A stretch of DNA of 64,000 nt from Lampris incognitus (Eukaryota > Chordata > Actinopteri > Lampriformes > Lampridae). The stretch covers positions 55,284,172 to 55,348,171 of the forward strand of contig NC_079219.1 of NCBI RefSeq assembly GCF_029633865.1. Direction: 5' to 3'. The notes below the pieces were generated by a model, which worked only from the letters and a program-made list of their open reading frames with translations, was not told the DNA's origin and made no database searches. Within the stretch, counting starts at the first letter, position 1. Each line of letters begins with the position of its first letter. Shown piece by piece: positions 1,790-46,441 of the stretch. The translations under genes and the position numbers were made by a program.

Positions 1790-1956
1790 ATGTAAGAACA
1801 AGTTATATCCAGATAATCTTCCTCGCACCAGTGTGGTCATTGTGTTTCACAATGAGGCGTGGAGCACACTGCTGCGTACAGTCCTTTCAGTCATCGACCG
1901 CTCGCCCCACACACTGCTGGAGGAGATAGTCCTGGTGGACGATGACAGCGAAAGAG
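1790..1956 (+). CDS. galnt1: galnt1 exon a (residues 106-160, start of GT-A fold)
   Basis: The exon follows a pyrimidine-rich acceptor (CCCCCCAG) and ends at GT in a (CA)n tract. It encodes the [20 protein letters not shown] stretch and ends in VDDDSER plus one base of the next Asp. This is the UDP-binding start of the catalytic fold. The first base completes a codon from an exon lying left of the window. VDDDSER differs by one residue from the usual VDDASER. Confidence 0.95.
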
Positions 1957-4900
1957 GTACACACACACACACACACACACAAACACAGAGAGCATGTAAT
2001 TCTTTAAGTCCTAGTCCTTCTCCCACTTGTACAGAGCTTACCCTACTTTTTACTACCAGGTATTTGCCAGCACTTGTGGCTTTGGGTGTATGTGTTCAGT
2101 ATGTGTGGCGGTGTGCACAGCACGGTGTGCACCAGTGCCCAGCCGTCAGCGTATATTATGGGCTGTGTGTGCCACTCAGCCCTGTGCTATGCTGTTAATC
2201 CCTGTTTGGGGGAGATTTGGTCTTCAATTCGCCAGCCACAGGGATTACACTCTGTTGTAACACTCAATTCCTCCACCACCACCACCCCCCACCAAACCCG
2301 TGCTCATTTCACCCCTGCTAACCCCAGAGATGTCAGTGGGATGGCAGGCGGGGCTGAGTCATATGAGGGTGAGGGGAAAGGGGAGAGGAAACTCATATCT
2401 CTGTGAATGTCTGCTTGTCGTGGGTTATGTGCGCTCACAACAGGTCATGAGGGGCAAACACACATTGGCACAAAAGCAGGGATGGCTTGTAATTTGATGT
2501 GCTTTGGCTCCGTGGTTGTGTCTGTGTGTGTGTGCCTATGATTCTGTATGCACTTGTGGTGATAAATGTTATAATTCTGCCTCTAAGTATGTGTGTGTAT
2601 ATGTATGTATATACTTGTATGTATATGTATATGCAAAGGAGCTCAAGGCATGAGGGAACACCGGCACACACTGGCTGCCGCTCCTCGTCCATGAACTTTG
2701 CTTGTTGTTTGTTTCTTGGACATTTTTCGGACAGTTTTAAATAGTGTTAATAGCGTTTACATCATATATTCCTTATAGATTTGAACTGGTCTGTCCATTT
2801 TCCTGATTCGCTGGTTGATTTGGATCACCTGCCTACCTGTTGCAGTATGGGCCTGATCCCTGGAAAACAACGCTTATTCCCCCTTCCACATCTTGGATCT
2901 GGTTTCCAGCGTACATATCATCCCCCTTTTTTCTTTTCCGGTGCGTTTTCAAATACCTTTCGAACTGTTGCTTCTCCACAGCCAACGTTAGCTAGCCTGC
3001 TAGCCAGCAGTGCTAGCTCGGATTTCGCGTTTTTACCTTTTCATTAGTTTTCGTAACAATGGAGTATACACTCGCACAGCTTCTTTGCCCTCAGAACCGT
3101 TACCTTTGGCCTACAAAACAAGCCCTAACCCTAACCTAACCGAACTTGGCATCTTGGGCTACAGTCGGCGTTACAGGTTTTGACCTGAATGCCGGAACCA
3201 CAACAACGCTACACATCATCATCAGTAACACCATGAGACCATGCAGTTTGCAAGACTGAAAATGTGGAGTGGATTTTACAGCACTACGACCTATACAGAG
3301 ACTTGCTGAAGACCCGACTCCCATCAAAAGCTCCGCTGCTTATCAGCATGGAACTCCTAAACACAGTCTCTTTCTAACAAATCCCTCCTGCTTCATGACC
3401 ACATTTTAGACAGAATTTTGACATTATTTGCCTAACCAAAACCTGGCACCAGCCTGGGGTTCACTCAAGCCTAAATGAGGCATGTCCACCTGGCTACAGG
3501 TACATAGAAATAGTCCGCCCAAATGGACGTGATGGTGGCTTAGCAATTATTCACCATGCTGAGCTAAAAATATCCCTCCTACCACTTCCCAGTCTGTCCT
3601 ATCTTGAATGTCTTGCCGAAAAATGCATGCCCCCCCCAACTCCATGACCATTCTTCTTGCCCCCCCCCCCAAAAGCCTAATCCATCCTTCATTCCTGAAA
3701 TAGCTGATATTCTCACCTCACTCTGCTCAATTTCAGCCAACATTGTTATTCTCTGGGACTTTAATCTCCACATCGACTCCCCCTCGGGTTATTCCGTTGC
3801 TGAATTCCTGAGTCTGCTCGAGTGTCTGGACCTACAATAACATGTTGATGTCCCCACACACCCACCAAGGGTACATGTAGGATGTGGTCATCACCGACTC
3901 TGCCCCCATCAGCAACCTTCAGGTCAAGGACCTTGGTGTCTCTGACCACAAGGAGGTCTCAATTGATCTGACTTTTTGCCCCCCCCCCCCCCCCCGACTA
4001 AATTCAAGCGCATTATGCATTTCTGTAACTGGAAAAAACATCAGCCTAGCCAGCTTGTCCACAGATTTCTCTAGCCTTCCTCACCCGGCCTTTTCTTCAG
4101 CTGATGATGCTATATCCTTCTATAACAACTCCCTGAGCAACATCTTCTATTCTACTCCAACATCATAAACAAAAATCCCAGAAACCCCAAACACCTGTTT
4201 TCCACAATAAACCACCTACTCAAGCCTTAGTCTCACTCAACCGTTGACTCCACAGAGAAGCAGTGCAATAACTTCATGGACTGTTTCACAACAAAAATCA
4301 GCAACATTAAGTCCTTCATCTATAGCAGCACTAACCTGTCACCTCCCATCCACGACCCTCTGCCCCCCCCTCCCCACCCACTCCTCTGTTTCTCTGAAGT
4401 CACCCCAGGAGAAATAGAGGCCATGGTCTCACAAATGAAACCATCTACATCCACCTTTGACCTTATTCCTACTGCCCTGCTCAAACTGTGCACTCCTGCT
4501 CCCAGCCCTCTCATCACCCAGGTCATTAACAGTCACTTCAATCTGGTCATGTCCCCTTAACTATTGAAACCACTGTAATCACCCCCATTCTCAAAAACCC
4601 CACCCTGGACCCGAAAAGTTTCGGCCAACTACAGGCTTATCTCCAACCTCCCCTTCCAATCCAAGGTCCTGGGGAAAAAAACATTGCAGCTCAACTACAG
4701 GATCACCTCAACCACAACAGCCTCTTCAAACACTTCCAGTCTGGTTTCAGGCCTGCTCACAGCACTGAGACGGCCCTCCTCAGGGTAACCAATGACCTTC
4801 TGCTGGCAGCTGATATTGGTTGTCCCTCCATCCTGATCCTCTTTGACATCAGCTCGGCGTTTCACACCATAGACCATTCTATTCTCCTCAAGCGCCTTCA

Positions 4901-7900
4901 GGACTACATTGGGTTCACCAAACTAGCCTTCATCTGGTTCAACTCATATCTAACCAACAGGACTGAGCTCCTCTCCCTAGGGGCATCAAAGTCCTGGAAC
5001 CACTCTGTTTCCTGTGGTGCCCCACAAGGATCCATCCTTCGCCCATCATGTTCATCCTTTACATGCTTCCTCTTGGTCATGTCATCAGTGTAGTATGGAA
5101 TACCATTCCATTGCTATGCTGATAACACACAACTGTACATCAAAAATGCCCCACATTCATCTGCTGCCTTCACGTGGCTCAACATCTGCCTTAAGGAGAT
5201 AAGGGCATGGATGAAGCACAACTTCCTTCAGCTAAACTGCAACAAAACCTTGGCCCTTCTTATTGGCACCCCTCACCAGGTTAAACTTTCTCCCACAACA
5301 CCCCTCACCATTGCTGGCTGAACCATCTCCTCTCCTCCTCAGTCATCAACCTCCGTATAAAGTTTGACCCCTCCCTAACCATTGACACCTACATTAAACA
5401 TCTCTGTAAGACCTCATTCTACCACCTTAAAAACATCGCCAAACTCCGTCCCACCCTTGCTGTTGCCGAGAGGCTTGTCCACGCCTTTGTTTCCTTGAGG
5501 CTGGACTACTCCATCATACTCTTCATTGGGATTCTTTGCAGGAGCCTCCAGAAGCTCCAGTACATCCAGAACAGTGCTGTCAGTATCCTGATGAGAGTGT
5601 GGAAACACCCCCACCATCACCCCCATCCTGGCTTCCCTGCACTGGCAACCCATCTCCCACAAAATCAACTTCAAAACCATCTTATTAACCTTCAAATGCA
5701 TCCATGGCAACGCACCACCTTACTTCAAAGAAGGGCTCACCCCCCACAATCCCTCCCACTGTCTCCGGTCTGGCAACAGCTTGCTCCTCCACACACCCGG
5801 GATGAAGCTTTGCTCAGTGAGAGACCAGGCATTTTTCTCTACCACCCCCCGTCTCTGGAACGCCCTCAGAATCGCCTAAGGCAGGGGTCAGCAACCTTTA
5901 CTATCGAAGGAGCCATTTTTGGCCAAAAAAAAATCTGTCTGAAGCCGCAAAACATATTTTAGCCTTATAATGAAGATAACACAGCCTATTAAGTATAAAT
6001 TAGCCATTCATCATGACTAATAGATCTGAGCACACATTATGTTTTACCACATGTGGCTACTCTGCAGTGAGCTATTTATGATTATTTGGTACTTTAACTT
6101 TGAATTTCCATTACATTAATACCATGTTTTGTTGCATTTATGAAATTATAGAACTACAATAAAGAAAACCGTTGACACTTTTTGTTATTTTTATTGGGGG
6201 ATGCTATTACCAACAAAACACAAAACTGAACAAAAGTCCACTTCAGTGCGAGGTAATCCTCTTCTTTTTTCCTCAGCCAAGTAATAACCCTCAGGCCTGA
6301 GCATGAAATAACAGCCCGGGGTCATTCAGTTCACTGACAGAATCACAACTTGCTAAAACAGTTACTTTGTTGCAAAATCATAGCTTATTAAAGGAAAGTG
6401 TTCTTAGTCGTTTAATGAGATTTCTGTTTGTGAACGTTAACTGCAGATCTTCTTGATATCAGGGCCGTACTGCAGGCTCTCATATGTGAGGCGGAAGCGG
6501 TATTTGGATTATGTAGTTCATGCTTGGGGTAGGGAGACTCATGACTAGCCAGTGCTGTTGAGGTTCGGCAAAATTTAGAGGGAAAGGTGTCGGCCATAGA
6601 CATAGCCTATGATGCACATTTTAGTTGACGAAATGTTAACAAAACACCCCCCCCCTTTTTTTTTCTCCCCAATTGTATCTGGCCAATTACCCCACTGTGC
6701 CGAGCCGTCCCGGTCTCTCTGCTCCACCCCATCTGCCGATCCGGGGAGGACTGCAGCCTCCTATACATGTGGAGTCGCCAGTCACTTCTTTTCACCTGAC
6801 AGTGAGGAGTTTCACCAGGGGGACGTAGCACGTGGGGGGATCATGCTATTCCTCCCCCCTCCCCCCTGAACAGGCGCCCCGACCGACCGGAGGAGGTGCT
6901 AGTGCAGCAACCAGGACACATACCCACATCCGGCTTCCCACCCGCAGACACCGCCAATTGTGTCTGTAGGGACGCCCGACCAAGCCGGAGGTAACACAGG
7001 GATTCAAACTGGCGATCCCTTTGTTGGTAGACAACAGAATAGACCGCTATGCTACCTGGACGCCCCTATGTTAAACATTTTTTATTCGGTGTGGAGAACA
7101 TAAGAATCACTTTAGGCCTACAACAATGATAAATGAAGATAAAAATGTTTAAAAAGTAACCGTTATTCATTTCCATATAATTTTGATCAAAGCCACAGGG
7201 AGCAACTGGAGAGGGGCAAAAGGGCCTCATGTGGCGCCGGTCGCCGACCCCTGACCTGACCTGAGGGCTTCTCAGACTCTGGCCTCCCTTAAACAGGCCT
7301 CAAATGACACTTTTATTCAGACAAGCTTTTAGTTTAACTGAGAAGTATTGTTGTTTGTCTGTTTTTATTGTTTAATGCACCGTCAAGCACGTTGATATTG
7401 TCAATGAAAGGTGTTGTGCAATTAAAATGTATTATTATTATCATCGTCATTATTTTTCGTGATCAATTATTTATTGGTATTTAAACATGGTTATAAAGGG
7501 GTGGGGTTAAAAGTTGATTGATCAAAAATAAAGTAGATGGATATAGTCATACTGTCCATGCATTAATTAATCTGCACAAAATTGACAAACAACCAAAAAC
7601 AAAATAGAAGAAATTAAGAGCATTTGTTTTGCCCCCCCCCCCCCAAAAAAAGAAAAAAATCCTCCCTTTGGCTCCCTCCCACCCCACCCACCCTGAACCT
7701 CATGGACACAGAGAACAATTATATTAAAGATTTTATTGTAGTAATTCCTTGTTCCCATTGTGACATATTTTCTGTTTTTGCCTGGTGCCTGTTGGCAGCT
7801 CTGTGTTCCATACTTGCTGTGTCTATGAAATCAATCATCCATCCATCCATCCATTATCCGAACCGCTTATCCTGCTCTCAGGGATGCTGGGGCCTATCCC

Positions 7901-29462: not shown

Positions 29463-30249
29463 CAGGCGTGCCGGAATCATTTCAGAAGTGGGGGGGGGGG
29501 CAACAATGATCTATATGCGTGTGCAGGGGTGTACTGTGTCGTGCTATAAGAGCGCAGCTGCGCATGCCTGTATTTGGGGTTTTAATACAACAAAGCACGT
29601 TATTGAAGACACGTGTCCGCCTCATCTTGTTACTTTGTTGCAGTTTGGCATCTCAGTGTAGCGTTCTGTGTTGAGCTTGAGCGCTGCTTAAGCGATACAT
29701 TGTATTCAGTTTTGAAACCCCGCTCTTTCTGCTGCCTGCCCACGGGGTGGCGCTATAATTCAAGCATAAACCAGCTAGTGCGCGTGGGATTAGATACAAA
29801 TAGTCCATGGGCCAGACCATTTTTTTGGTGCATCTCAAGGTGGCAAAACTTGTGATTTTTGAAAAGGTACATGTATGTAGATGACATTTTGGTATGATAG
29901 CCCTTCCTAAGTGGTAGCCGAGTCACAGTTATCAGCTCATGAAGTTGATAACCCCTAATCATAAATTCAGTTTTTCAACACTAGTGTATGTCTGGTTAAC
30001 GCTCATGTAAGGACATTTGCCAATGTTTAATAATACAGTGTTCGGTATAATTTTAAAGGGGACCTTTTAGGCTTTCATTTAAGACCAATGCCATATTTGT
30101 CTGACAAACACAGAGGTCACGTGACCTCTTTAAACCATAGATGACAAACATTTTCCCACAATTTTCGCCTAAACGATAACAAAATGCCTTTTTCTTATTA
30201 TTTGATGTTGGAAGAGCTATATGGAGTCTAATATGAAACCTGCTGGTAA

Positions 30250-31083
30250 ATTAGAGTAAAAGGTTCACCAACAGCCAAGTTCCATGACACAATCAAAAAA
30301 CAGAACCTGAAGACATTTGCAAGCATCACTAAAAGTAGAGGAAAACCGGCAAAAAACAGGGAGGTGGTCTTGAAAGCAGATAGAAATCTCTTTGGACATA
30401 TGATCATTGTTTCACAAAGTAGAGATCTTCACATTGAAGATGTCCTGGCTCATCCTCTTGGTCCACTACCTTGGGCACTTTCAAATCCAGATGGCTCACT
30501 GTGGAAAACTAATAAGGCTGCTCTTGCAAGAGAGTTGGAGAAATCAGGATCCGCAGTAGAAGAAATTGGAGAACATTCTGCATGCATCATTGATGGAATG
30601 AGCCTTGTTCAGAAAATGAAAGGGGATGGCAAAACCTTTGGAGAGATTGCTGGATCTGTGCTGAACCTAGTGCTGCATGAAGGAGGGCACAGTAAGCGGA
30701 TAGATGTGGTGTTTGATGTATACAGGAAAACATCGATCAAGAATGCTGAGAGATGCAATCGTGGTTCAGCAAGTAGCACTCAATGGAAAAAGATTGCCCC
30801 GGGACACAAAGTTGTGCAGTGGAGAAAACTTTTAAGTAATCCAGACAGCAAAACAGCACTGATAACATTCATCGTGGACCAGTGGAAGCAACCAGAGAAC
30901 CTTCAAAGGCTTAAGGAGGACAAGCAGCCATTTACAATCTGTGGAGAGACATGCTATTGTCTTGGCAAAACAGACTGGAATGTTGTTGAAGACCTGAAAT
31001 CTTCCCACGAGGAGGCGGATACCCGCATGCTCTTACATGCAAATCATGCCAGTAAGAATGGCTATCAAACCATTCTTACTGGC
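30250..31083 (+). pseudogene. FEN/XPG-like nuclease, N-terminal part
   Basis: The frame is open from a TAA at 30247; an AG at 30253-30254 could be a splice acceptor. Visible in order: FHDTIKKQNLKTFAS, CIIDGMSLVQ (first acidic site), RIDVVFDVYRKTSIK (second acidic site) and EEADTRMLLHANHA (acidic pair). The order and spacing follow the FEN1/XPG/PIN-like nuclease fold: D, D, E/D, D, then the helix-two-turn-helix. The frame ends at ATG-TGA (31084-31089), where a 1-nt shift is needed to continue. A 17-bp perfect hairpin covers the break. Confidence 0.7.
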
Positions 31084-31085
31084 AT

Positions 31086-31647
31086 GTGAGCGAGGATACA
31101 GATGTCATGATCCTTTGTCTTGGATACTGTAAGAAGATAAACTGCCCTCTGTATCTGAAGTGTGGCACTCAGAATCGGACAAGGTACATCAACATCAGCA
31201 ACCTTGCTCAGCTCCTTGGGGATGACCTATGTGATGCTCTTGTAGGTGTACATGCCTTCACAGGTTGTAATAGTGCAAGTGCATTTGCAGGACGTGGTAA
31301 ACTTTGTGCTTTCAAACTGATCAAAGGAAACAGGACATTGCAAGAGTCCTTCAAAACCCTGGGAACATCCTGGGATGTATCAGACGAATTGTACAGCAAT
31401 ATGGAATCATTTGTCTGCAGGTTGTATGCGCCATCATCTAGCATATGTGACGTCAATGATCTGCGTTACTTGCTGTTCTGCAGCAAAAGGGGTGAAGTGG
31501 AGTCCAGTGTACTTCCTCCTTGCAAGGACTGTTTACAGATGCATATCCAGCGTGCCAATTACCAGGCACCAGTGTGGAGGCGCTGCCTGGAAGGACAACT
31601 AGACATACCAGTGCCAAAAGGACATGGATGGACAACTGATGACCAAG
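31086..31647 (+). pseudogene. FEN/XPG-like nuclease, central part (shifted frame)
   Basis: Continues with SEDTDVMIL, the DxD pair equivalent to the SEDMD box of FEN1, and FTGCNSASAFAGRGK. The latter resembles the GSDYC-GIGPKRA helix-two-turn-helix, though the second acidic residue expected after GC is Asn here. The rest includes VCRLYAP, RANYQAPVWRR and KGHGWTTDDQ, conserved in this repeat-borne family. The exon ends at CAAG followed by GTATAC, a plausible donor. Confidence 0.7.
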
Positions 31648-31772
31648 GTATACTTATAATAAAATTCACTACATACATGTTCATCATGCTATAATAATAT
31701 GTATAGGTAATTTCTAAACATTCAACTTCCTCGCTGAAATGAAGCTGAAATATGTTCCACTTATTCTTACAG

Positions 31773-32017
31773 GTATGCTGATGTTAGAATGGATGCGAGG
31801 ACCCCCAGCACCACTGGCTGTCCTGGAACTTATGGCCTGCAAGTATGTACGGACCTGCAAGCTTCCTGACTGCTCCTGCCTTGCCCACAGACTGAAGTGC
31901 ACAGAAATGTGCAAGCTACAAACCTGCACCAATCAAAGAGAAGAGGACGTAGAGGTTGATGTGAAACTGGTCGACTATGATGATGATGATGATGATGATG
32001 AAGATGAGGTGTATTAA
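31773..32017 (+). CDS. FEN/XPG-like nuclease, C-terminal exon (Cys cluster and acidic tail)
   Basis: After acceptor ATTCTTACAG the frame joins in phase with 31647 to give GMLMLEWMR. Then comes a Cys-rich stretch, ACKYVRTCKLPDCSC and KCTEMCKLQTCTN, probably metal-binding. An acidic tail encoded by (GAT)n precedes the TAA stop. The same Cys-cluster ending is typical of this family in other animal genomes, from memory. Confidence 0.65.
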
Positions 32018-32719
32018 ATGTATAGTTCTTATTTTTTTTTCTTATTTCCTTCTTTGAATCACGAATGGTGTCATTGAAAGGTGATAGCTATGACTAAGTT
32101 ACTCCTTGGGGAGAATTATCCTATTGAAATATGTTGGTCCAAATAATGGAGGTGAATGGGCCTGAGCTGATGACTTCTCATTTAAGGTTCAAAATCACCT
32201 CTCACAAAGAAAAAGTATGGGTATATTATACATTTTCTGAATCCTTGGAATCTCTTCTGTACTGCAGTTGTTGAGTTTTGTGCCCCTGAGGTCTCTTGAT
32301 GCCACAGGGCTAAATAAAGAATATAGTTTAGGCGAAGATTGTGGGAAAATGTGTGTCATTTATGGTTTAAAGAGGTCACATGACCTCTGTGTTTGTCATA
32401 CAAATACAACGTTGGGCTTAAATGAAAGCCTAAAACGTCCCCTTTAAAATTATACCAAACACTATATTATTAAACATTGGCAAATGTCCTTACATGAGCT
32501 TTAACCAGATATACACTAGTGTCAAAAAACTGAATTTATGATTAGTGGTTATTGACTTCATGAGCGGATAACTGTGACTCAGCTACCACTTAGGAAGGGC
32601 TATCATACCAAAATATCATCTACAGACATGTATCTTTTCAAAAATCACAATAAAGTTTTGCCACCCTGAGATGGACGAAATAGTGAAATTTTGGCCTCTG
32701 GCCCATGCATGGACTATCT

Positions 32720-33543
32720 CCTGTCACCTCTGACGCAAGGATAAGACCCAGCACTGTTGTTCCTGCACTAAACCTGTCCAGCAACCCGTTTGCGTTGGTT
32801 GCTGTATCTGCTGTACCCGAGGCCATCTGCTCTAGACTCTCCAGCACCGAAGGATATTGGTCAATGACTGAGGTAATGGCCTTATGCCTTACTGTCCACC
32901 TGGTTGGACATAACGGCTTGAGTGTTCTGTATGGTGCTGATGCTGATTTAGCTATGTTTTTGAACACGGTCTTGAACTTTCCCACCAGATTGAAAAGATT
33001 CCCTAGTTCATGAACCCACTGCAAGGAGTCTCAAATCAGAGGCGATGATTTGCATGCAGCCTCGGTTGCCAGGTTGGCACAATGTATGTACAAGGCCAGT
33101 GGTTGCTGTTTCTTGATCAGTGCCTGTACACCCATGTTCTTCTCAGCCATGTTCGCAGCCCCATCGTATGCCTGTCCTCTTAAGGAGGATAATGGCAAAT
33201 TCAGCCGTTTCAGTACACCGATAGCTATGTCACTGATAGCTTGTCCAGTTGTTGATGCAGTTTGGTAAAGGCCAACAAATTCCTCGTGCAGAATTAAATC
33301 ATGGTCTACATATCTGACACAGATAGACTCCTGCTCTTTTCCAGATACATCCTGTGTGCCATCACTGATCAATGAGAACTGTACAACCTGTGGACCTTTG
33401 ACAGCTGCAACAATGTCCCTGACCACTGTATTTCCTAGGAGCTGAAGCATTTCGTTCTGCCTTTGTGGGCTAATGTAATCTTGGCTGCGCTTCTCAAGCC
33501 AGTTAGAAATAATGGGGTCACTTTCTGCTTTAGACTTTAACAT
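32720..33543 (-). pseudogene. hAT-type transposase fragment (DUF4371/ZMYM1-like)
   Basis: Two minus-strand frames (33543-33031 and 33024 downward) encode SLISDGTQDVSGKEQESICV, GLYQTASTTGQAISDIAIGV, LSSLRGQAYDGAANMAEKN and CPTRWTVRHKAI, the DDE-bearing core of ZMYM1/DUF4371 hAT transposases. A 1-nt shift and a short deletion separate the two frames. The protein is cut at 32720 by the inverted repeat of the neighbouring element, so the C-terminal dimerisation region is missing. Confidence 0.8.
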
Positions 33544-33899: not shown

Positions 33900-34037
33900 C
33901 TTGTTATTTTACCTTTTTTGGCGAGGGAGTTAACATCATCATTCATGACATATTTTTTTTAGGGGGGACAAATTCACCTCTTCTAAATATTGAGGGGGAC
34001 ATGTCCCCCCTGACCCCCCCCATAAGTTACACCTGTA
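33900..34037 (-). mobile_element. hAT-like terminal region of the transposase fragment
   Basis: Read on the minus strand, CAGGTGTAACTTATGGGGGG starts at about 34036 and is followed by a GGGGGGACATGTCCCCCC palindrome and a leader to the transposase start at 33543. It interrupts BEL/Pao gag coding that continues above 34038. Confidence 0.6.
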
Positions 34038-36341
34038 GGTGGAGGCTGATGCTCCAACTGCTGATTCCTCCATATTAGTCTTGTTAATGTGAAGCACAGT
34101 GGGATGTTGCCGTTCAAAGACAGCACAGACCAAGCGTTTACTGCAGTCGTGGCTTATATGTCCAGTGCCTAAGCATCCAAAGCAAATGCCCCTCTCCTTT
34201 AAAAGGCTGATTTTATCTTTGTGCCTTTTACCTTTAAATTGCTGGCATTGCTCAATAGGATGAGCGCGTGAACAGCAGTGGCAAGATTGCGTGTCTTGCT
34301 TCATTGAGCTATTGGTTAGTGGCTCATCTTCACCAGAATCCTTCTGTGTCACAGTAGTAGCAAAGCTACTGCCTTTGTACTTTGACTGTGTTGGCTGTAC
34401 AATAAACTTGTTGGAAACGGCACTCGATGATGATACACCGTCAATATCACCAAAGATGGGGTCAGACAGCATTTTCACATGCTTCTCCAGGAACCTGACC
34501 AGGTGCTCAAAATTAGCTCTTTCTTGAGAACTTTCCATTATGTCATAAGCTTTATTTCTCCACCTCTCTCTGAGCTTATATGGAAGTTTTGAAATGACCA
34601 TCCTCATGTTAGTTGGCAAATCCAACTCCTGCATGTACTCAAGTTCTCCCATCACATTGCAACATCCCCGTAAGAACAAAGCATAAGCCTGCAAGTTTTG
34701 GCATCCTCAGATTTTATTTTTGGCCAAGCTAGTGCCTTTGCTATACAAGCAGTGGCAATCCTGTACTTGTTTCCAAAGTGTTCCTCAAGAAGGCACTTTG
34801 CCTGGCTGTAGCCCTGCTCAGGAGCCATGTGCTGACAGCTTTGAACCAATTCCTTTGGCTGTCCTCTGGTAAACTGCTCCAGATAATACAAACAATCAGC
34901 TTCACTAGCTTTGTCCTCCACAAGTTGCTCAAATGAAGGCTTGATACTGTAATGGGTCTCCTTCAAATACAGGAATGTCTCATGTGGGCAGCGACAACAT
35001 CCTCTGCTGGTAGACAAGAGAGGCTGCGATTTCATTTTGTTTATGCATAATGGTGATGATATTGTCAGGTGGTAGGCCTACTGGTGCATTTTGGGTTTGT
35101 TGATCTACATACTGACTGTTGCTTTGATTTGGCCACGCAGTCATACTAGGAGGAGCATACGTGCATGCTCCTGTTGCTTGTTTCATTGGGAACGAGATGT
35201 TTTTCTCTGGCCTACAATCCGTTGCTGGTGGTTGGCGTGCCAGTGACCAATCCTGTGGCTGCGAGGTCTGCGCAACAGGCCTATATGGCTTGACCGTAGG
35301 GTCAAGGGTGTAAGCAGGTTTCATTTTCCTCTTTTCCCTTTCACAATAAGCGTTCATGTCGTTAGAGGAGACTCGAGAACCACCTGCTTCCAAGACACTC
35401 AGTTGAGCAGTAGTTACTGCAAGCACCGCTTCCAAATCCATCTGTTGCTTTTTCCTCTTTAATTGTTGCTCCTGTTCCTCCAGTTTGTGCAGCTCCTTTA
35501 AGGCTGTCATGCGCGCTGTTGCTTTCGTTACTGATGAAGCATTTGACCTGTTGGTGTCAGTTTTGTTTGAGTGACGAATATTGGACGCACTGTCCTCTGG
35601 ATTAATTTCACTTTCATCACCATGAAATTCACCTTTGTCACAGTTAAGTTCACCTTGCTTTTCAACTTTGTGATCATTTTTATCAGAACCATATTGTATC
35701 TTGTTTTTCAACCACAATTCTATTTTACTGAAAAATTCATCATTGAACAACATTTTGGCTCGAAAGCACACTTCATGTTTCTCATGTTCTGCTGGCGGCA
35801 ATAAAGAATCACGTGTACACCTTATGTCGTCACAACATTCAATAAATTCATCAAAAGCTTGTTGCGCCTGTGAAACGTTGCCATTTGACAGTAAACCTTG
35901 TATCGTGTGTCAAAGATTACAAGCGTTAGTTAGATTTGATTTTCTACCTTTTTGCAATCTGTCCAATTTATTACACAAGGCTTTGGGGGTAGGTGCAATC
36001 GCCCGTTTGGGCCTGATAACGTCATCGGTACTGTTTGTTGTACCGGACGCAACCGGCTCATTCGCGTCCGCGAGCAGTGGCTTCTCCGTGTCACCAGTCG
36101 CGCGCATAGTGACGATCAACAGTTCGCAACAAACATCGCGAAAGTTTGTTCCTATGCATCGCGACCGACGCATAAGAATTACGCAATATTGTGTGCACAC
36201 ATACTGCAGATGGCCAAACCTTGGTAACGCGCTACACGTACCTCCCCAATGATGAAGATGATCCTGATGATGACGATGACCCGGCCACCGGCTCCTTCTC
36301 GTCCACTGCCCGTTCTGTTGTATCCGAAACCGCAGACCCAA
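34038..36341 (-). pseudogene. BEL/Pao-type LTR retrotransposon gag remnant
   Basis: Minus-strand frames carry, in order: an N-terminal gag segment (RPKRAIAPTPKALCNKLD, one in-frame TGA near 35908), a long charged segment with a LEEQEQQLKRKKQQMDL coiled coil near 35480, a DUF1759-like segment (YLEQFTRGQPKELVQSC near 34885), VISKLPYKLRERW near 34590 and a CCHC knuckle CFGCLGTGHISHDC near 34170. Frame changes near 35010 and 34670 show decay. Pol is absent: the copy is cut at 34038 by the hAT end. Confidence 0.75.
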
Positions 36342-36940
36342 GTGCCGTCAGCCGATGAGCAGAGGAGAAGCAGCCGGGAGGTAGTAGGATATTCCGCCGT
36401 GGGTTTGTCTTCAAACCAGCTTCTTTGGCAAAGTTTCCGACTTGCTGTGGAGGCTAAGCCCAGTGCTTTAAGCCACCGAGGCGCTACTGCTCGGGTTGAC
36501 CTAATCGACGCACATTTCACACTACCACGTTTGTAAACAACGTAGAATGGAACGATGCAAAGTGCTGCGCGAACACTTGGTCCATTTCTTGCTCTTCGGC
36601 AGTAATCCATTGAACATGTAAACGCTGCACAAGTGTGTGAGTAGTGGTCGAAAACTGTTTGCCCTCCGTGCAGCGACACCTAACAAACAACAGGGGAGGT
36701 CCTACCTATGTGTTCCCCATAAAGTGGGAGGAGCAAACACCTTGACCCAATTAACCAATTGGAGGAGCAAAACATAGACCCAAAGCAGCGCCCTAGAAAG
36801 AGAGAGTTACGTCAACTCCGTAGACGTCAATGGGCCAACAGCAACGGCGGATCATGGGAGCCCCGGATAGTTCCAAAACAGTGCGCATAGAATATGTGTC
36901 ACGTTGGAATATATCTATTATATCTATATCTATGTAAACT
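36342..36940. other. unresolved segment upstream of BEL-like gag
   Basis: A minus-strand frame (36679-36179) is open but resembles no family I can name. It may be 5' leader or LTR of the BEL-like remnant. Confidence 0.3.
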
Positions 36941-37262
36941 AAAAATAAGACACATTAGTCCCTAGTTAACGTGTCTAACCCTTTAGCCGAGCGGTTAGTG
37001 GCGTCGCCTTGTGGTGCAGCACACTCCGTATCGAATCCCGCATCGGACAAGAAAATAACCGGTTACATTATTATTATTATTTACAGGGTCGGACCCGTTA
37101 GCCAAGGTCTAGCGGGTCTATTTGTCCGTGCACGATGCATTAACACGTAATATTTTTGTAATATTTTTAACACGTAGAGTTTGGTACACCACAAGGCGAC
37201 ATCACTAACCACTTGGCTAAAGGGTCAGACCCGTTAGTTAGTGATTAATGTGTCTTATTACT
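36940..37262. repeat. inverted repeat with tRNA-like arms
   Basis: Left arm 36945-37020 (AAGACACATTAGTC, then CCCTTTAGCCGAGCGGTTAG and GTCGCCTTGTGGTG) recurs as its complement at about 37180-37262. The left arm is followed by a B-box-like TATCGAATCCCGC near 37030. The pair forms a large palindrome of a tRNA-derived sequence. Confidence 0.7.
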
Positions 37263-37379
37263 AGTTTACAATAATAATAAATCTTATATAGCGCTTTTCT
37301 AATACTCCAAGTCGCTTCACAATAAACGGGGTGAAACAAGACGACAGATAAACATAACAGAAATACAGGGGTAGGTGGG

Positions 37380-37470
37380 AAAGGGGGGGCTTCAGTCGAC
37401 TGGTTAACGTGGTGCAGGACATCCGGGTTCGCGTCCCGGCTGTGGCGGTTCCCGGGCGCCCCCCCCCCCC
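37380..37470 (+). repeat. tRNA-like SINE head fragment
   Basis: CAGTCGACTGGTTAACGTGG and GGGTTCGCGTCCCGGC have A- and B-box spacing of a tRNA-like promoter. No full tRNA cloverleaf is apparent. A stretch of ACGTGTTA-rich sequence follows to 37570. Confidence 0.45.
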
Positions 37471-37873
37471 GAATTCGCTACATTAACACGACCCACGTGT
37501 AAATTAACACGTAACACATATTACGTGTTAATACGACCAAACTCTACGTTACGTGTTAACGCGTAATAGTTAAAATATTACGAAAAGAATTACAGCGTCC
37601 TGGAGCGGCTGCTTCGGGGTTCTGGCTGCGCTGGCTCTCGATTTGGGGGGCCAGGCTCCAGTGGAGTTGTGGGCGGCGGGCGAGGGAGGGCGGGGTAACA
37701 TTACTGTTAAAGTTGAGTTTTGTTTGGCTTTTTGCAGAAGCACGTGTTCGCATTACTGAAAGCTAGCAGAGCTGACGTTAGCTAAGCTAACGGCTCAAAC
37801 ACACAAACGACGCAAACACGCGTCATTTTATGGGTTGCTATGCTGGCTACAATGCTTTTGATGTGTTGCAATT

Positions 37874-38577
37874 GTAACCAGGTTAAAATTAATGTTTTTA
37901 TTTTATTTTGTTTGAGTATGAAATATCACCAAATCCTGTCTGTGTGCTGTTATTGTGTTTACTTTTTTATTTACTTTTATGTATGTTTTACAACGACCGT
38001 CATATACGTGTACTGTCGCTTTAAGAGAGAGGTCTTGTGGGTACACGGAAGAGGGAACGCGGGAGAGGCCATTTTTGTTTTGTGGGAGGAGTCTCAAGCA
38101 GCGATCGAGCCGAGCCACGCGTGTTTCTTACGGTAGGACAGTTTTGGTGGTTGAGGAGAACGTAACCTTGAGTATCCCTGTAAGAAGATACTGCAAGCTG
38201 TGGGATAAAATACTTGTTTATCCTTTCTTACATCGGAGTCCCGTGGACGGTTTCTCCTTCTAATGCACACGAGTGAAGTCCGGGCAGTGGTTGAACTTCG
38301 ACCCCCACGTCCGTAAGAAACACCGCTCCCGCTGGAGGACTGGACGTTTGTCGAAGGATTTGAAACCAAAATAAATGGCAAGGTGGGCCAAATAGAGTCC
38401 TGTGTGTCCCCCCTCCTTCCTTGATCATGATGATGATGATGATGATGAGAGACTGAGGGCCCCCCACAACACCTGGGACCCCACCGAAAATAGAACACAA
38501 CGCAGAGCTAATGATGAGAGTGACGGGCGTGCAGCAGGCTGACCAGCAAAGAACAGCATAGGACTGCCCCCGTTACA
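37874..38577 (+). repeat. Ty3/Gypsy LTR, plus orientation
   Basis: Begins TGTAACCAGG and ends CCCCCGTTACA, with an AATAAA signal near 38373. A primer-binding-site-like TTGGTGCCGTGACCCGGAT follows directly at 38579. The last 155 bp recur at 42043-42198 in the same orientation. CAAT precedes this LTR and follows the right copy, consistent with a 4-bp target duplication. Confidence 0.7.
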
Positions 38578-38599
38578 TTGGTGCCGTGACCCGGATAAT

Positions 38600-39724
38600 C
38601 CCTTTCTCCTCCATATCAGTGAGAACCTGTCTCAACTTCTGATAGTGGGCTGGGGGAACCCTCCTGTAGGGCAGGCGAAAGGGGCGCTCATCCACCAGAT
38701 GGATGCGATGTGTGTATCCTGTGACCTCGCCACAGTCCAGAGAGTCCCTGGAGAAGATGTCATGGTACTCGGTGAGCAGCTGAGTGAGCTGGGACTTGCA
38801 TGCCTCACTAACCTGACAGGAGCTGAGGTCAATGTCACTGAGTCCGAGCTCTGACAAACTCCTAGCCGGCTGGACAGGGGGACAGGCACTACCTGTGGCG
38901 TTGGACTCATGCCTCCCCGCAACTGATTGCAGTCCCTGGAAAACATTAAAGTCCTCAATCGCCAAGCATGGAAACACATCAGCCAACTTGCAGTTCCTTT
39001 TCAGCGTGATGGCTTTGTCAGATGGATTGACAACAGTCATGAGTACCCACCTATCACCCCAGAGCGGTGTGACAAGTCGACCTACGAGGACACCGCGTGG
39101 CATGGCCTTGGAGTCTGTCGGCTCCACAACAACAGTGCTTCCAGCTGACATAGGCACCTTAGCAGGAAGTCTGCCCCAGACTAAGTGCTCGTGCCTCGGT
39201 AAGAGTGTCACGGCCTGGGTGAGCTTAACAGTACCTATCTTCTCAGGAACTGCACCACCCCTCCAGCGCTCTACATTCGTGAACATGGACAAGAACTGTT
39301 CAACGTCAGGACTAGACGGATGTTCCTGTCTGGACGCGATGTCCCAGTACTCAGTACCACTCTTGAGTACATGGGCCACATGTTTAATGACGTTTGTGCC
39401 GACTATCAGATCATCATGCTGACCGGGCACGACCAGAGTGGGTATGACAAAGGAAACACCATAAAGCTGCATGTTGAGGTCATAAAAACCATCAGGCCTA
39501 GTCTCCAGACCACCGCAGCCAATCAAGACAATGTTCTCTTCAGGCTGCTGCTTCTCAGGTAAAACACCCCCAGAGCGGAGCTTCTCTACTGCATTTTCAC
39601 TGATACTGCATGACATAGAGCCAGTATCCAACATGCCATTAAGCTGCACACTCTGGTTGACAAGAACAGGAGCATAGAACAAGTCACTGAAAGCCTGAAT
39701 CCTCTGTGTCGCCTGAATGACCAT
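38600..39724 (-). pseudogene. Ty3/Gypsy pol fragment: protease and start of reverse transcriptase
   Basis: A minus-strand frame encodes an aspartic protease site (NGMLDTGSMSCSIS near 39640), a linker, and the RT entry PFRLPYRRVPPAHYQKLRQV near 38670 up to EEKGIIR. There it runs into primer-binding-site and LTR sequence read in complement and stops. RT catalytic motifs, RNase H and integrase are absent. Confidence 0.8.
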
Positions 39725-39837
39725 ACGCGAACCCTGAGGTGCTTTGGCACACTTGTCTTCTTACAAGTGAGCCAGGTCGGAGACATCAGTGAGGGATACA
39801 TCTACTTTACCCACACCTTCCCTCTCTAGGTGTGGGT

Positions 39838-41349
39838 TTAGTAGTTTAACGGACGAGACTGATGACCAGCTCTTCCACCAGGCTGAGAACGGAGCTGGTT
39901 GGGCGGCTGAGGGTGAGGACAGTCCCTCTTCCAATGACCAGGAGACAAACAGTTTATACATCGGTTCGCCCGGCTGCAGTGGGAAAATGTGGAGTGATCC
40001 GGAGACTTACAAACCCTGCACAACCGCTGCGGTGCGTCTGGCACCTGCCCTGCGGCGCTAGCTGGCGGTTGAGTCAGCGTCGGTGTCCGGACTGCAGCGC
40101 TAACTGGAACCTGAGTCTGCATTTTGACCAAACGGTCTAGCAAGCTCACCAAACTCCTCATATAATCATCACCGCCAGAGACAGGTGCAGGAGACGGTGT
40201 AGGAGACCTTGCACAAAATGGTATAGGAGATGGCACCACCGGCACGGTCGTGTTCAAGTCGGGAGCCACGTCGACTACAGGGACATGAACCTGTGAATGG
40301 AACCTATGCTCTACCGCGCCTGCTTCACGTTGTCCACCTGCAGCAACACGGGACTTCCTCTCCAGCATGTGCTCATCAAGCCTCTCCTGGATCTCGCTAG
40401 CAGACCATTTCCCTGCGGACTTGAACTTAAAAACATTGGCAAGAGACTGATCTGGACAGTGTTTGATAAACATCATGCTTACCTCGTGGCTTGGCTCTTC
40501 AATACTACGGCCCTGCCACTTCAAGTATTCGTCAGCCACCTCCACTGTCTTATTAAGCCTAATCCAATACTCCATAGCGTCCTCACCTGGCTTGGGCAGC
40601 GTACTGTAAAAGTCCGCCAGGGGCATGCTCGAGTATGTGAAGTCACTAAAGTGTTGCTTCAGTACATCAAAAATAATGTGGGGGTTCGCTATGTGGTCGA
40701 CAGATGTGTTGCGCAGCTTTATCCTCACCACGTCCCTTGCTTTCCCCATAAGCTTAGCTAGAATCTCATGTGACTGCTCACTAACTGGAATGGCTCGCTT
40801 CCTCAAATACAAAGTCATAAGGCTCTCCCACTCATGAACTGTAAACTTATCAGAGCTATCGCCCCTGAAAATAGGAGGCTCCCTAGCGTCTGTCTGCATT
40901 ACTACTCTAACACTAGGCACTGTCTCCGAACACTGTTCAGCAGACCTAGCACTGTCTGTGTGTGTGTTTCTAAGCATTTGTGTTTCCTGCAGCTTAGCAG
41001 TGATTGACTCTCCTATCTTCTCTGCTAACCGAGTAATGAGCATTGCTAACTCACCCACTGGCTGCTCGCTGTTACCTAGCACAGCCCCTTCGCTGATACC
41101 TGGCCTGGCCCATTCTACGTAGCGTGTGGAGGTGAACTGAGGAGTGCCAAATGTGGTCAGGTCTCTAGGTCCTGGTGCTCTGGTGTCTGGTTCCCCGCCC
41201 TCTAAGAGCTTCCCGGAACTCCTACCTACACCTAGCCGTAAATCCCCACCCACATCTAACTGGTACCCCCTCTCCATAGCACACTGGCGATCCAAAAGAT
41301 CCTGATCAGCAATGTTACCCCCACCTACGTACGAACCACCCTCTGCCAT
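39838..41349 (-). CDS. Ty3/Gypsy gag, open frame
   Basis: A 503-residue open frame from ATG at 41349. It includes a capsid-like segment (TVHEWESLMTLYLRKR, LPKPGEDAMEYWIRLNK) and two C-terminal zinc knuckles, CRVCKSPDHSTFSHC and CINCLSPGHWKRDC. The downstream pol frame is offset, as is common when pol needs a frameshift. The frame being intact suggests a fairly recent copy. Confidence 0.85.
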   Translation of the reverse strand: MAEGGSYVGGGNIADQDLLDRQCAMERGYQLDVGGDLRLGVGRSSGKLLEGGEPDTRAPGPRDLTTFGTPQFTSTRYVEWARPGISEGAVLGNSEQPVGELAMLITRLAEKIGESITAKLQETQMLRNTHTDSARSAEQCSETVPSVRVVMQTDAREPPIFRGDSSDKFTVHEWESLMTLYLRKRAIPVSEQSHEILAKLMGKARDVVRIKLRNTSVDHIANPHIIFDVLKQHFSDFTYSSMPLADFYSTLPKPGEDAMEYWIRLNKTVEVADEYLKWQGRSIEEPSHEVSMMFIKHCPDQSLANVFKFKSAGKWSASEIQERLDEHMLERKSRVAAGGQREAGAVEHRFHSQVHVPVVDVAPDLNTTVPVVPSPIPFCARSPTPSPAPVSGGDDYMRSLVSLLDRLVKMQTQVPVSAAVRTPTLTQPPASAAGQVPDAPQRLCRVCKSPDHSTFSHCSRANRCINCLSPGHWKRDCPHPQPPNQLRSQPGGRAGHQSRPLNY

Positions 41350-44103: not shown

Positions 44104-44311
44104 GTGAGTAGCGAAGTGTTTCTACCGACGGTTCTACTTCCCCCTTCTTAACTTCTGGCTGTAGTTTCTCTTTCCTCCTCCGGCACTCCGCGTGAAGAGC
44201 GCGCGCGGGCCACCATTTTCGTCTTTAACAAGCGTTTCAGTGATGAGACTATTCACGTCTTCTCTTTGTATTCCGTCTGTTTTCAGGTCTGTCGATGTCT
44301 GCGGTGAAACA

Positions 44312-46441
44312 ATGACCATAGTTCTTCGTTTGCAAGGTCTGCACGTGAAAGCCGGGGCTGAAGACATCCGGAAGTTCTTCGACGGCCTCCACGTTCCAGA
44401 AGGGGGCGTGTGTATAGTCGGCGGGAGCCTCAGAGAAGCGTTCATTGCCTTCACCACTGAACGGGATGGCCAGCTCGCCATGCGTTTCTCCGGAAGTCTT
44501 CTCAAAGGGACTCGGGTTACTCTTCACATTAGCAGCATGGCGGAGGTGGAGCACAAAATAAAGTCGAAGCTAAAGCACAAGAAACTCGCCAAACTGCGCC
44601 GTCCTGTCAAGAAGCCTCAGCCTCGGCCGCCCGCAGATTCACCACCAGCGGATCCACGGACGGTTGCGGCTGAGGCCGCTGTGCTGTTTGATCTGATCCT
44701 CCAAGGACTGCAGCAGAGCCAGCACACACAGAACACCGAAGAGGTGCAGAGTCCACATTGTATGAAGTCTGACGAAACATCTTTGGCCCTTGCTGATGAT
44801 TTCCCATCGCCCGAGGAAGCTGCCATGGTAAAGCCAGGCTATGTCAGGTTGTTTGGCCTGCCCACACTGGTCACAAAAGGGGACATTTGCCACTTCTTCG
44901 AGGGGCTGCTAGTTGAGGAAGTAATCGTGAATATCAAGTTGGGGCTAAAGAGTGGCTGCCTGGTGAAGTTTGCCAACTTCCAGGATGGATGTGATGCTCT
45001 TCTCTTAAATGGTCAGCAACTGGGCTCGGCTTGTGTGGAAGTGCGTGGGGCAACTGAGAAAATGTGGAACAGTGCAGTGCAGGAATGTGAAGACCTGTCC
45101 ACTGGGTTTGATGAAATGAATGGGACTGTATTACCCTCTGTGACACAAAACATGGAAAAATCAAGGCCCGCTCATGAACTAATGAACCCCAAAGGCAGCC
45201 CAGTGAGAAAACACAGAGAAAAATCTCCACCAGCTGTGCAAGCTGCCAAGGTAAAGCCAGGCTATGTCAGATTATTTGGCCTGCCCACACTGGTCACAAA
45301 AGGGGACATTTGCCTGTTCTTCAAGGGGCTGCTAGTTGAGAACGTAATCATGAATATCAAGGTGGGGCTAAAGAGTGTCTGTCTGGTGAAGTTTGCCAAC
45401 TTCCAGGATGGATGTGATGCTCTTCTCTTAAATGGTCAGCAACTGGGCTCCACTTGTGTGGAAGTCCGTGGGGCAACTGAGAAAATGTGGAACAGTGCAG
45501 TGCAGGAAAGTGAAGACCTTTCCACTGAGTTTGATGAAATGAATGGGACTGTATTACCCTCTGTGACACAAAACACAGAAAAATCAAGGCCCACTCATGA
45601 ACTGATGAACGCCAAAGGCAGCCCATTGAGAAAACACAGAGAAAAATCTCCACCAGCTGTGCAAGCCAAGTGGAGATCTAGGAACAGCTGTTTGAAATTA
45701 CAAGAAAAGCCTAGATATGGTAATACTTCCACAAGTGGTTTATCACCAGATGCAAAGTATTACGTCATGGTAACTAATCTGCCAAAATATTTTACAAAAA
45801 CAGAAATTAAAGAAGTGGTTGGATGCCAGAAGAGACCATGCAAGGTTATACATCTGCTTGATAAGAAAAGCCAAAGAACACAGACAGCGTTTGTCATTTT
45901 TGACCAAATGGAGGATTATGACTATGCTATGAATCTGAATGGCTGCTTTATTTCCTCCCAAGCTATTTGTGTCACATCAGTCAACAAGGAAAAGATGAAT
46001 GAAATGTTGGCTGTTTCCCGTACCAACTATCTCGAATGTTTGAATTCAAGGCAAATTAAAAGGAAGAAACCAAACACAAGATACTCGAGCATGGCTGTGG
46101 ATTTGGCGGCTAAAACATGCGTATTTGTAAGAAATCTGCCAGCCAATGTGCAAAAAACTCAAATTAGAGATGTTTTCCACAGATATAAACTGAGAGAAGA
46201 TAATATCTTCTTATTGCAGGACAATGGCGGCAATGGGATTGGCGAGGTTGTGGTTCAGTTTAAATCGGCAAAACAAGCAGCACGGGCACAAGGACTCCAT
46301 GGTCAGATGTACCAGGGGGCAGAGTTGCTCCTCAGCTGCATAAGTCTGAAACAGATGGAAGACATCTTGAACAGAAACCCATGGAAAAAAGGAACCAGGG
46401 GGCACCCCGGTGGCTCACCTAGTAGAGCACGTACCACATAA
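44312..46441 (+). CDS. rbm12b: RBM12B-like RNA-binding protein with five RRMs
   Basis: A 709-residue frame from ATG at 44312. This start is preferred to the upstream in-frame ATG at 44192 because MTIVLRLQGL aligns with the start of RBM12B, and an acceptor at 44286 would remove the upstream part. RRM1 (2-75, VPEGGVCIVGG), RRM2 (about 173-250) and RRM3 (about 314-390) both start KPGYVRLFGLP, RRM4 (about 482-560, YYVMVTNLP) and RRM5 (about 600-680, CVFVRNLP). RRM2 and RRM3 are products of a 423-bp in-frame duplication. The gene presumably binds RNA in the nucleus, as its relatives do. The last 14 residues, from RGHPGG to the TAA, are encoded by a SINE. Zebrafish has two rbm12b copies and I cannot say which this is. 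Confidence 0.88.
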   Translation: MTIVLRLQGLHVKAGAEDIRKFFDGLHVPEGGVCIVGGSLREAFIAFTTERDGQLAMRFSGSLLKGTRVTLHISSMAEVEHKIKSKLKHKKLAKLRRPVKKPQPRPPADSPPADPRTVAAEAAVLFDLILQGLQQSQHTQNTEEVQSPHCMKSDETSLALADDFPSPEEAAMVKPGYVRLFGLPTLVTKGDICHFFEGLLVEEVIVNIKLGLKSGCLVKFANFQDGCDALLLNGQQLGSACVEVRGATEKMWNSAVQECEDLSTGFDEMNGTVLPSVTQNMEKSRPAHELMNPKGSPVRKHREKSPPAVQAAKVKPGYVRLFGLPTLVTKGDICLFFKGLLVENVIMNIKVGLKSVCLVKFANFQDGCDALLLNGQQLGSTCVEVRGATEKMWNSAVQESEDLSTEFDEMNGTVLPSVTQNTEKSRPTHELMNAKGSPLRKHREKSPPAVQAKWRSRNSCLKLQEKPRYGNTSTSGLSPDAKYYVMVTNLPKYFTKTEIKEVVGCQKRPCKVIHLLDKKSQRTQTAFVIFDQMEDYDYAMNLNGCFISSQAICVTSVNKEKMNEMLAVSRTNYLECLNSRQIKRKKPNTRYSSMAVDLAAKTCVFVRNLPANVQKTQIRDVFHRYKLREDNIFLLQDNGGNGIGEVVVQFKSAKQAARAQGLHGQMYQGAELLLSCISLKQMEDILNRNPWKKGTRGHPGGSPSRARTT
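44816..45665 (+). repeat. 423-bp in-frame tandem duplication inside the rbm12b-like gene
   Basis: Units 44828-45250 and 45251 onward begin GTAAAGCCAGGCTATGTCAG and end CCACCAGCTGTGCAAG, offset exactly 423 bp (141 codons). By eye about 23 nucleotide differences separate them: 7 synonymous and 13 codons changed. Confidence 0.9.

Follow-up and report, generated by a model that had tools for sequence, protein, structure and literature searches.

Academ DNA transposons join a transposase and a nuclease in one protein, which has a cysteine-rich N-terminus. The AcademX lineage produces target duplications of 3-4 bp and the helicase-encoding AcademH lineage duplications of 9-10 bp, a difference that has been linked to the encoded nuclease or helicase (PMC10045372). 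The window, which is the whole stretch of 64,000 nucleotides from Lampris incognitus analyzed here, contains an element that is very probably a deleted and dead copy from an AcademX-type family of cut-and-paste DNA transposons, with AcademX being compared by its description only. The relatives of this element in the same genome resemble AcademX in having 3-bp target duplications, terminal inverted repeats, DDE-like and nuclease-like regions in one protein, and a cysteine-rich N-terminus. The window copy shares the terminal inverted repeats, but in contrast to AcademX it lacks the transposase region, a start, an intact frame, and matching target repeats. AcademH would have the superfamily in common with the element, if the assignment holds, but its duplications of 9 or 10 bp differ from the 3 bp found around the relatives.

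The longer elements of the family, at 6-7 kb, encode a cysteine-rich N-terminus, a DDE-like transposase region, an XPG/FEN-like nuclease region, and a cysteine-rich acidic tail. The transposase would presumably cut at the TAGTCCATGGGCCAGA ends and insert into a 3-bp target, and the nuclease region would presumably trim DNA during excision. In itself the window copy is of little weight, being a decayed transposon whose kind has been described before.

Termini and relatives of the window element

The left terminal inverted repeat (5' type, 29801-30178, + strand) has the terminus TAGTCCATGGGCCAGA, and the right one (3' type, 32322-32716, - strand) has the same terminus with an extra CATG, with both limits taken from the repeat finder, blastn, and the ends of the relatives. 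The repeat finder paired 329 nt of the arms with 92% complementarity, together with an outer 28-nt pair at 89%, and blastn aligned them with 90.8% identity over 359 columns (E 1e-142), far beyond chance, which bears out the inverted arms of about 380 bp reported in the initial annotation. The outermost bases are TAGTCC, from 29801, and GGACTA, up to 32716. The triplets flanking the element differ, being AAA at its left end and TCT at its right end, and the window copy is thus without a target duplication.

Searching the left arm against the 1.48-Gb assembly that contains the window gave at least 49 matches at E <= 0.001, a lower bound from 40 scored candidates of 188, and many of these are facing pairs 2.2-11 kb apart. 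The 20 stretches fetched represent 19 further elements bearing terminal inverted repeats; L015 and L016 each hold part of one 11-kb element. The fuller relatives that the initial annotation had hoped to find in this way do exist: L022, L027, L013, and L023 have the same ends and contain upstream coding sequence, with frames broken in places, and the order of regions is a cysteine-rich N-terminus, a DDE-like middle, the nuclease-like region, and the tail. The middle region of these copies, and of the intact 1560-aa frame of a second family described below, contains the conserved stretches WDNID... and VVFDQALYAKA..., which we take by eye to be a DDE transposase; Pfam gave no transposase match for this region. 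Exact 3-bp target duplications, within the 3 or 4 bp of AcademX, flank 13 of the 15 other elements of the window's family read at both ends (the 11-kb element being counted once), and the exceptions are L028, with ATT/TTT, and L022, the ends of which are damaged. The Academ derivation proposed in the initial annotation gains support from these fuller relatives with the same ends and 3-bp duplications.

Several internal deletions are common to more than one copy. L009, L014, L020, and L026 share a 5' deletion (approximately 947-2971) and retain the nuclease region, L016 and L025 share a second deletion, and L018 and L021 a third; therefore, some deletion forms have multiplied. L012 and L019 contain a common inverted internal block (L027 element coordinates approximately 1829-3761), and this internally inverted form also appears to have multiplied.

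Junction and flanks of the window copy

Next to the left arm, on its inner side, the window copy keeps a short remnant of the longer copies' 5' leader (30179-30258, + strand), which corresponds approximately to L027 element coordinates 1104-1189, and coordinates 385-1104 of L027 are missing ahead of it. The remnant ends at a deletion junction with a 2-nt overlap (GAGTAA|AAGG, 30258-30259), where about 3.3 kb is absent relative to L027, corresponding to the cysteine-rich N-terminus and the DDE-like region. The natural start was removed by the upstream deletion, and the earliest in-frame ATG of the window copy is at 30400. In a search of the genome for the junction, with all 30 candidates scored, it is spanned by the window alone (1/30), with eight of the matches covering the left part only and 21 the right part only.

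The right flank (32717-33118) is a repeat that holds the right-half insertion and has five further copies in the genome. Three empty copies of this repeat read ...CCAGC-TCT-CCTGTC... and contain TCT at the site, and TCT is therefore a fitting target. The sequence upstream of these three empty copies matches nothing in the 1 kb to the left of the window element, and, judged by sequence, the two flanks of the element are not from one site. The window copy is probably chimaeric, and most likely it is the product of one deletion joining two copies, which we infer to have been a single event. This deletion would have begun within one copy and ended within another, with loss of the intervening DNA, such that the first copy gave the left flank and left part, and the second gave the right half and right flank. 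Its effect would be to strip out the transposase region and to leave 3-bp target repeats that do not match each other, and a single inter-copy deletion would therefore account for both the private junction and the mismatched repeats. By itself it is insufficient, since the second gap (L027 coordinates 385-1104) also parts the window copy from the longer copies, and this gap would need an event of its own or an unseen source copy.

The right flank also contains an open reading frame (33031-33543, - strand) that is part of the five-copy repeat and that, by eye, we presume to be ZMYM/hAT-like.

The nuclease-like region and its decay

The first half of the nuclease-like region (30259-31072, + strand, with the frame stop at 31087-31089) contains the motifs IIDG (30586-30597), VVFD (30706-30717), and EEADTRM (31009-31029), and the second half (31086-31647, + strand) contains SEDTD (31089-31103), TGCN (31260-31271), and AGRGK (31287-31301). 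A GT...AG intron of 125 nt (31648-31772) is followed on the same strand by a C-terminal exon (31773-32017, stop at 32015-32017) that encodes a cysteine-rich cluster and an acidic tail. All of the motifs are therefore present in the order given in the initial annotation, though not in the single gene that it described: the frame is broken at 31073-31085, leaving two overlapping open reading frames, one with IIDG, VVFD, and EEADTRM (30364-31089) and one with SEDTD and TGC...GRGK (31086-31694), and the tail can be reached only across the intron. The C-terminal tail was matched in all 16 copies scanned. In the second family, the coding sequence reads straight on, without an insert at the position of the intron.

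The break consists of 13 nt (31073-31085), identical to the reverse complement of 31046-31058, which replace the 8 nt found in the other copies as CAGTTATT or close variants (15/15 copies compared); the net change is +5 nt, between EEADTRM and SEDTD. Short template switching is a described type of mutation. By its sequence the +5 change is the signature of such an event, which would have broken the frame in addition to the losses caused by deletion. As an observation in its own right, 31046-31085 is a clean example of a short template switch, with the source lying 14 nt upstream of the inverted 13-nt copy. At the fifth motif, TGCN in the window copy replaces the last candidate catalytic aspartate with asparagine; in 12 other copies caught by a sequence pattern this motif is TGCD in nine, TGCN in two (L048 and L050), and TGCV in one (L017). 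Because L048 and L050 also read TGCN, the asparagine may have been inherited from a source copy, and the three perhaps represent a subfamily. The seven conserved acidic residues found in order in FEN/XPG enzymes are not all present in the window copy, where the last aspartate is asparagine and the frame is broken; the later acidic motifs are kept in L054, L020, and L028.

The region resembles FEN-1/XPG 5'-nucleases in the order and approximate spacing of its acidic motifs and in a G-x-G-x3-A step, but differs from them in that no sequence or profile similarity was detected, and in the N that the window copy has for the last D. Sequence searches of Pfam, NCBIfam, PHROGs, and the PDB returned neither an XPG nor a transposase match. 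An hhalign comparison with four archaeal FEN-1 sequences gave a score of 17.2, within the range of 30 shuffles (12.2-24.4), and two AlphaFold2 models had a mean pLDDT below 40, too poor for fold comparison. The FEN/XPG assignment is therefore one of motif order and spacing. The spacing pattern, E-x-D/E followed after about 20 residues by D-x-D, after about 60 by D, and then by G-x-G-x3-A, is present in 4/4 FEN-1 sequences and in three of the nine rows of the element alignment (L054, L020, and L028), the remaining six being mutated or cut; it occurs in none of 292 background open reading frames, and when sequences were shuffled 20000 times it appeared in 16 shuffles for the 1560-aa protein and in 3 for the 419-aa region. 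This pattern was chosen after both the FEN-1 and the element sequences had been seen, and its support for the assignment is suggestive only.

Were the C-terminal region something other than a FEN/XPG nuclease, the element could belong to another or unnamed DNA-transposon superfamily, a reading favored by the negative profile searches for XPG and by an assignment made on motif order. We consider this unlikely, since the FEN-1-like spacing is rare in shuffles, even for a pattern selected with both groups in view, and the 3-bp target duplications fit the published AcademX values (PMC10045372). The arms might also have been an unrelated repeat chancing to flank a nuclease gene, and this is almost certainly wrong: nothing was found in its favor, and it is refuted by the many copies in which these arms enclose that coding region, with 3-bp duplications outside the arms.

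Another reading is that the window element is a non-autonomous mobile unit that keeps a nuclease gene under selection. The nuclease region is at least partly kept in 19 of the 20 elements with terminal inverted repeats (the window copy and 19 others), and matches to it are found in three (L048-L050) of five further one-ended stretches; the four copies with the common 5' deletion have multiplied without a full transposase. Against this, L011 keeps the 5' part instead, without the nuclease region, and L046 and L047 have no nuclease match. The private substitutions of 16 other copies, pooled and summed by hand with L009 dropped, are flat over the codon positions (151:138:150), as expected of decay without codon bias. 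The 28 private coding changes of the window copy do favor third positions (5:7:16; p 0.008 if taken as a single test, with 18 rows looked at), which could reflect past constraint. This bias counts against pure decay, yet it rescues no working gene, because the frame is broken and a candidate catalytic residue is changed. With a unique junction, no target duplication, and flanks from different sites in addition, the maintained nuclease-only mobile unit envisaged in the initial annotation is very unlikely; the loss of the transposase part that it proposed stands, as the longer copies and L054 have the DDE-like region, and the maintenance of the nuclease does not. A further idea is that deletion copies with a preserved 3' half supply a free nuclease domain, which acts in trans to help or restrain transposition of the full elements, and that nuclease-bearing derivatives therefore spread more often than others; we regard this too as very unlikely. 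The window element is better described as a dead deletion copy of the AcademX-type family.

A second family with open frames, and other frames of the window

A protein search of the same genome, in which 87 of 2878 candidates were scored, gave 14 matches to the window's family (90-100%) and 73 to a second family (55-56%). Among the 87 scored matches, at least 15 of the second family list an open 1560-aa frame without a stop in the match, and 30 have the same bit score of 594.9, which indicates near-identical copies. In L054, the one copy read, an intact 1560-aa frame (1852-6531) contains all of the regions, and the terminal inverted repeats (539 bp, 96%) have the terminus TAGTCCATGGGCCAGA, as in the window's family, and are flanked by a 3-bp target duplication, CCA. 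The second family looks recently active, and it could be able to recognize the ends of the window's family. How the transposase of an Academ element and the nuclease fused to it cut DNA has, to our knowledge, yet to be worked out biochemically, and the second family is natural material for the study of this question.

Elsewhere in the window, open reading frames at 33939-41349 (- strand) look by eye like fragments of retroelement gag and protease, which we presume them to be. A 749-aa open reading frame (44192-46441) has repeated RNA-recognition-like motifs, as read by eye, and is presumably RBM12B-like.
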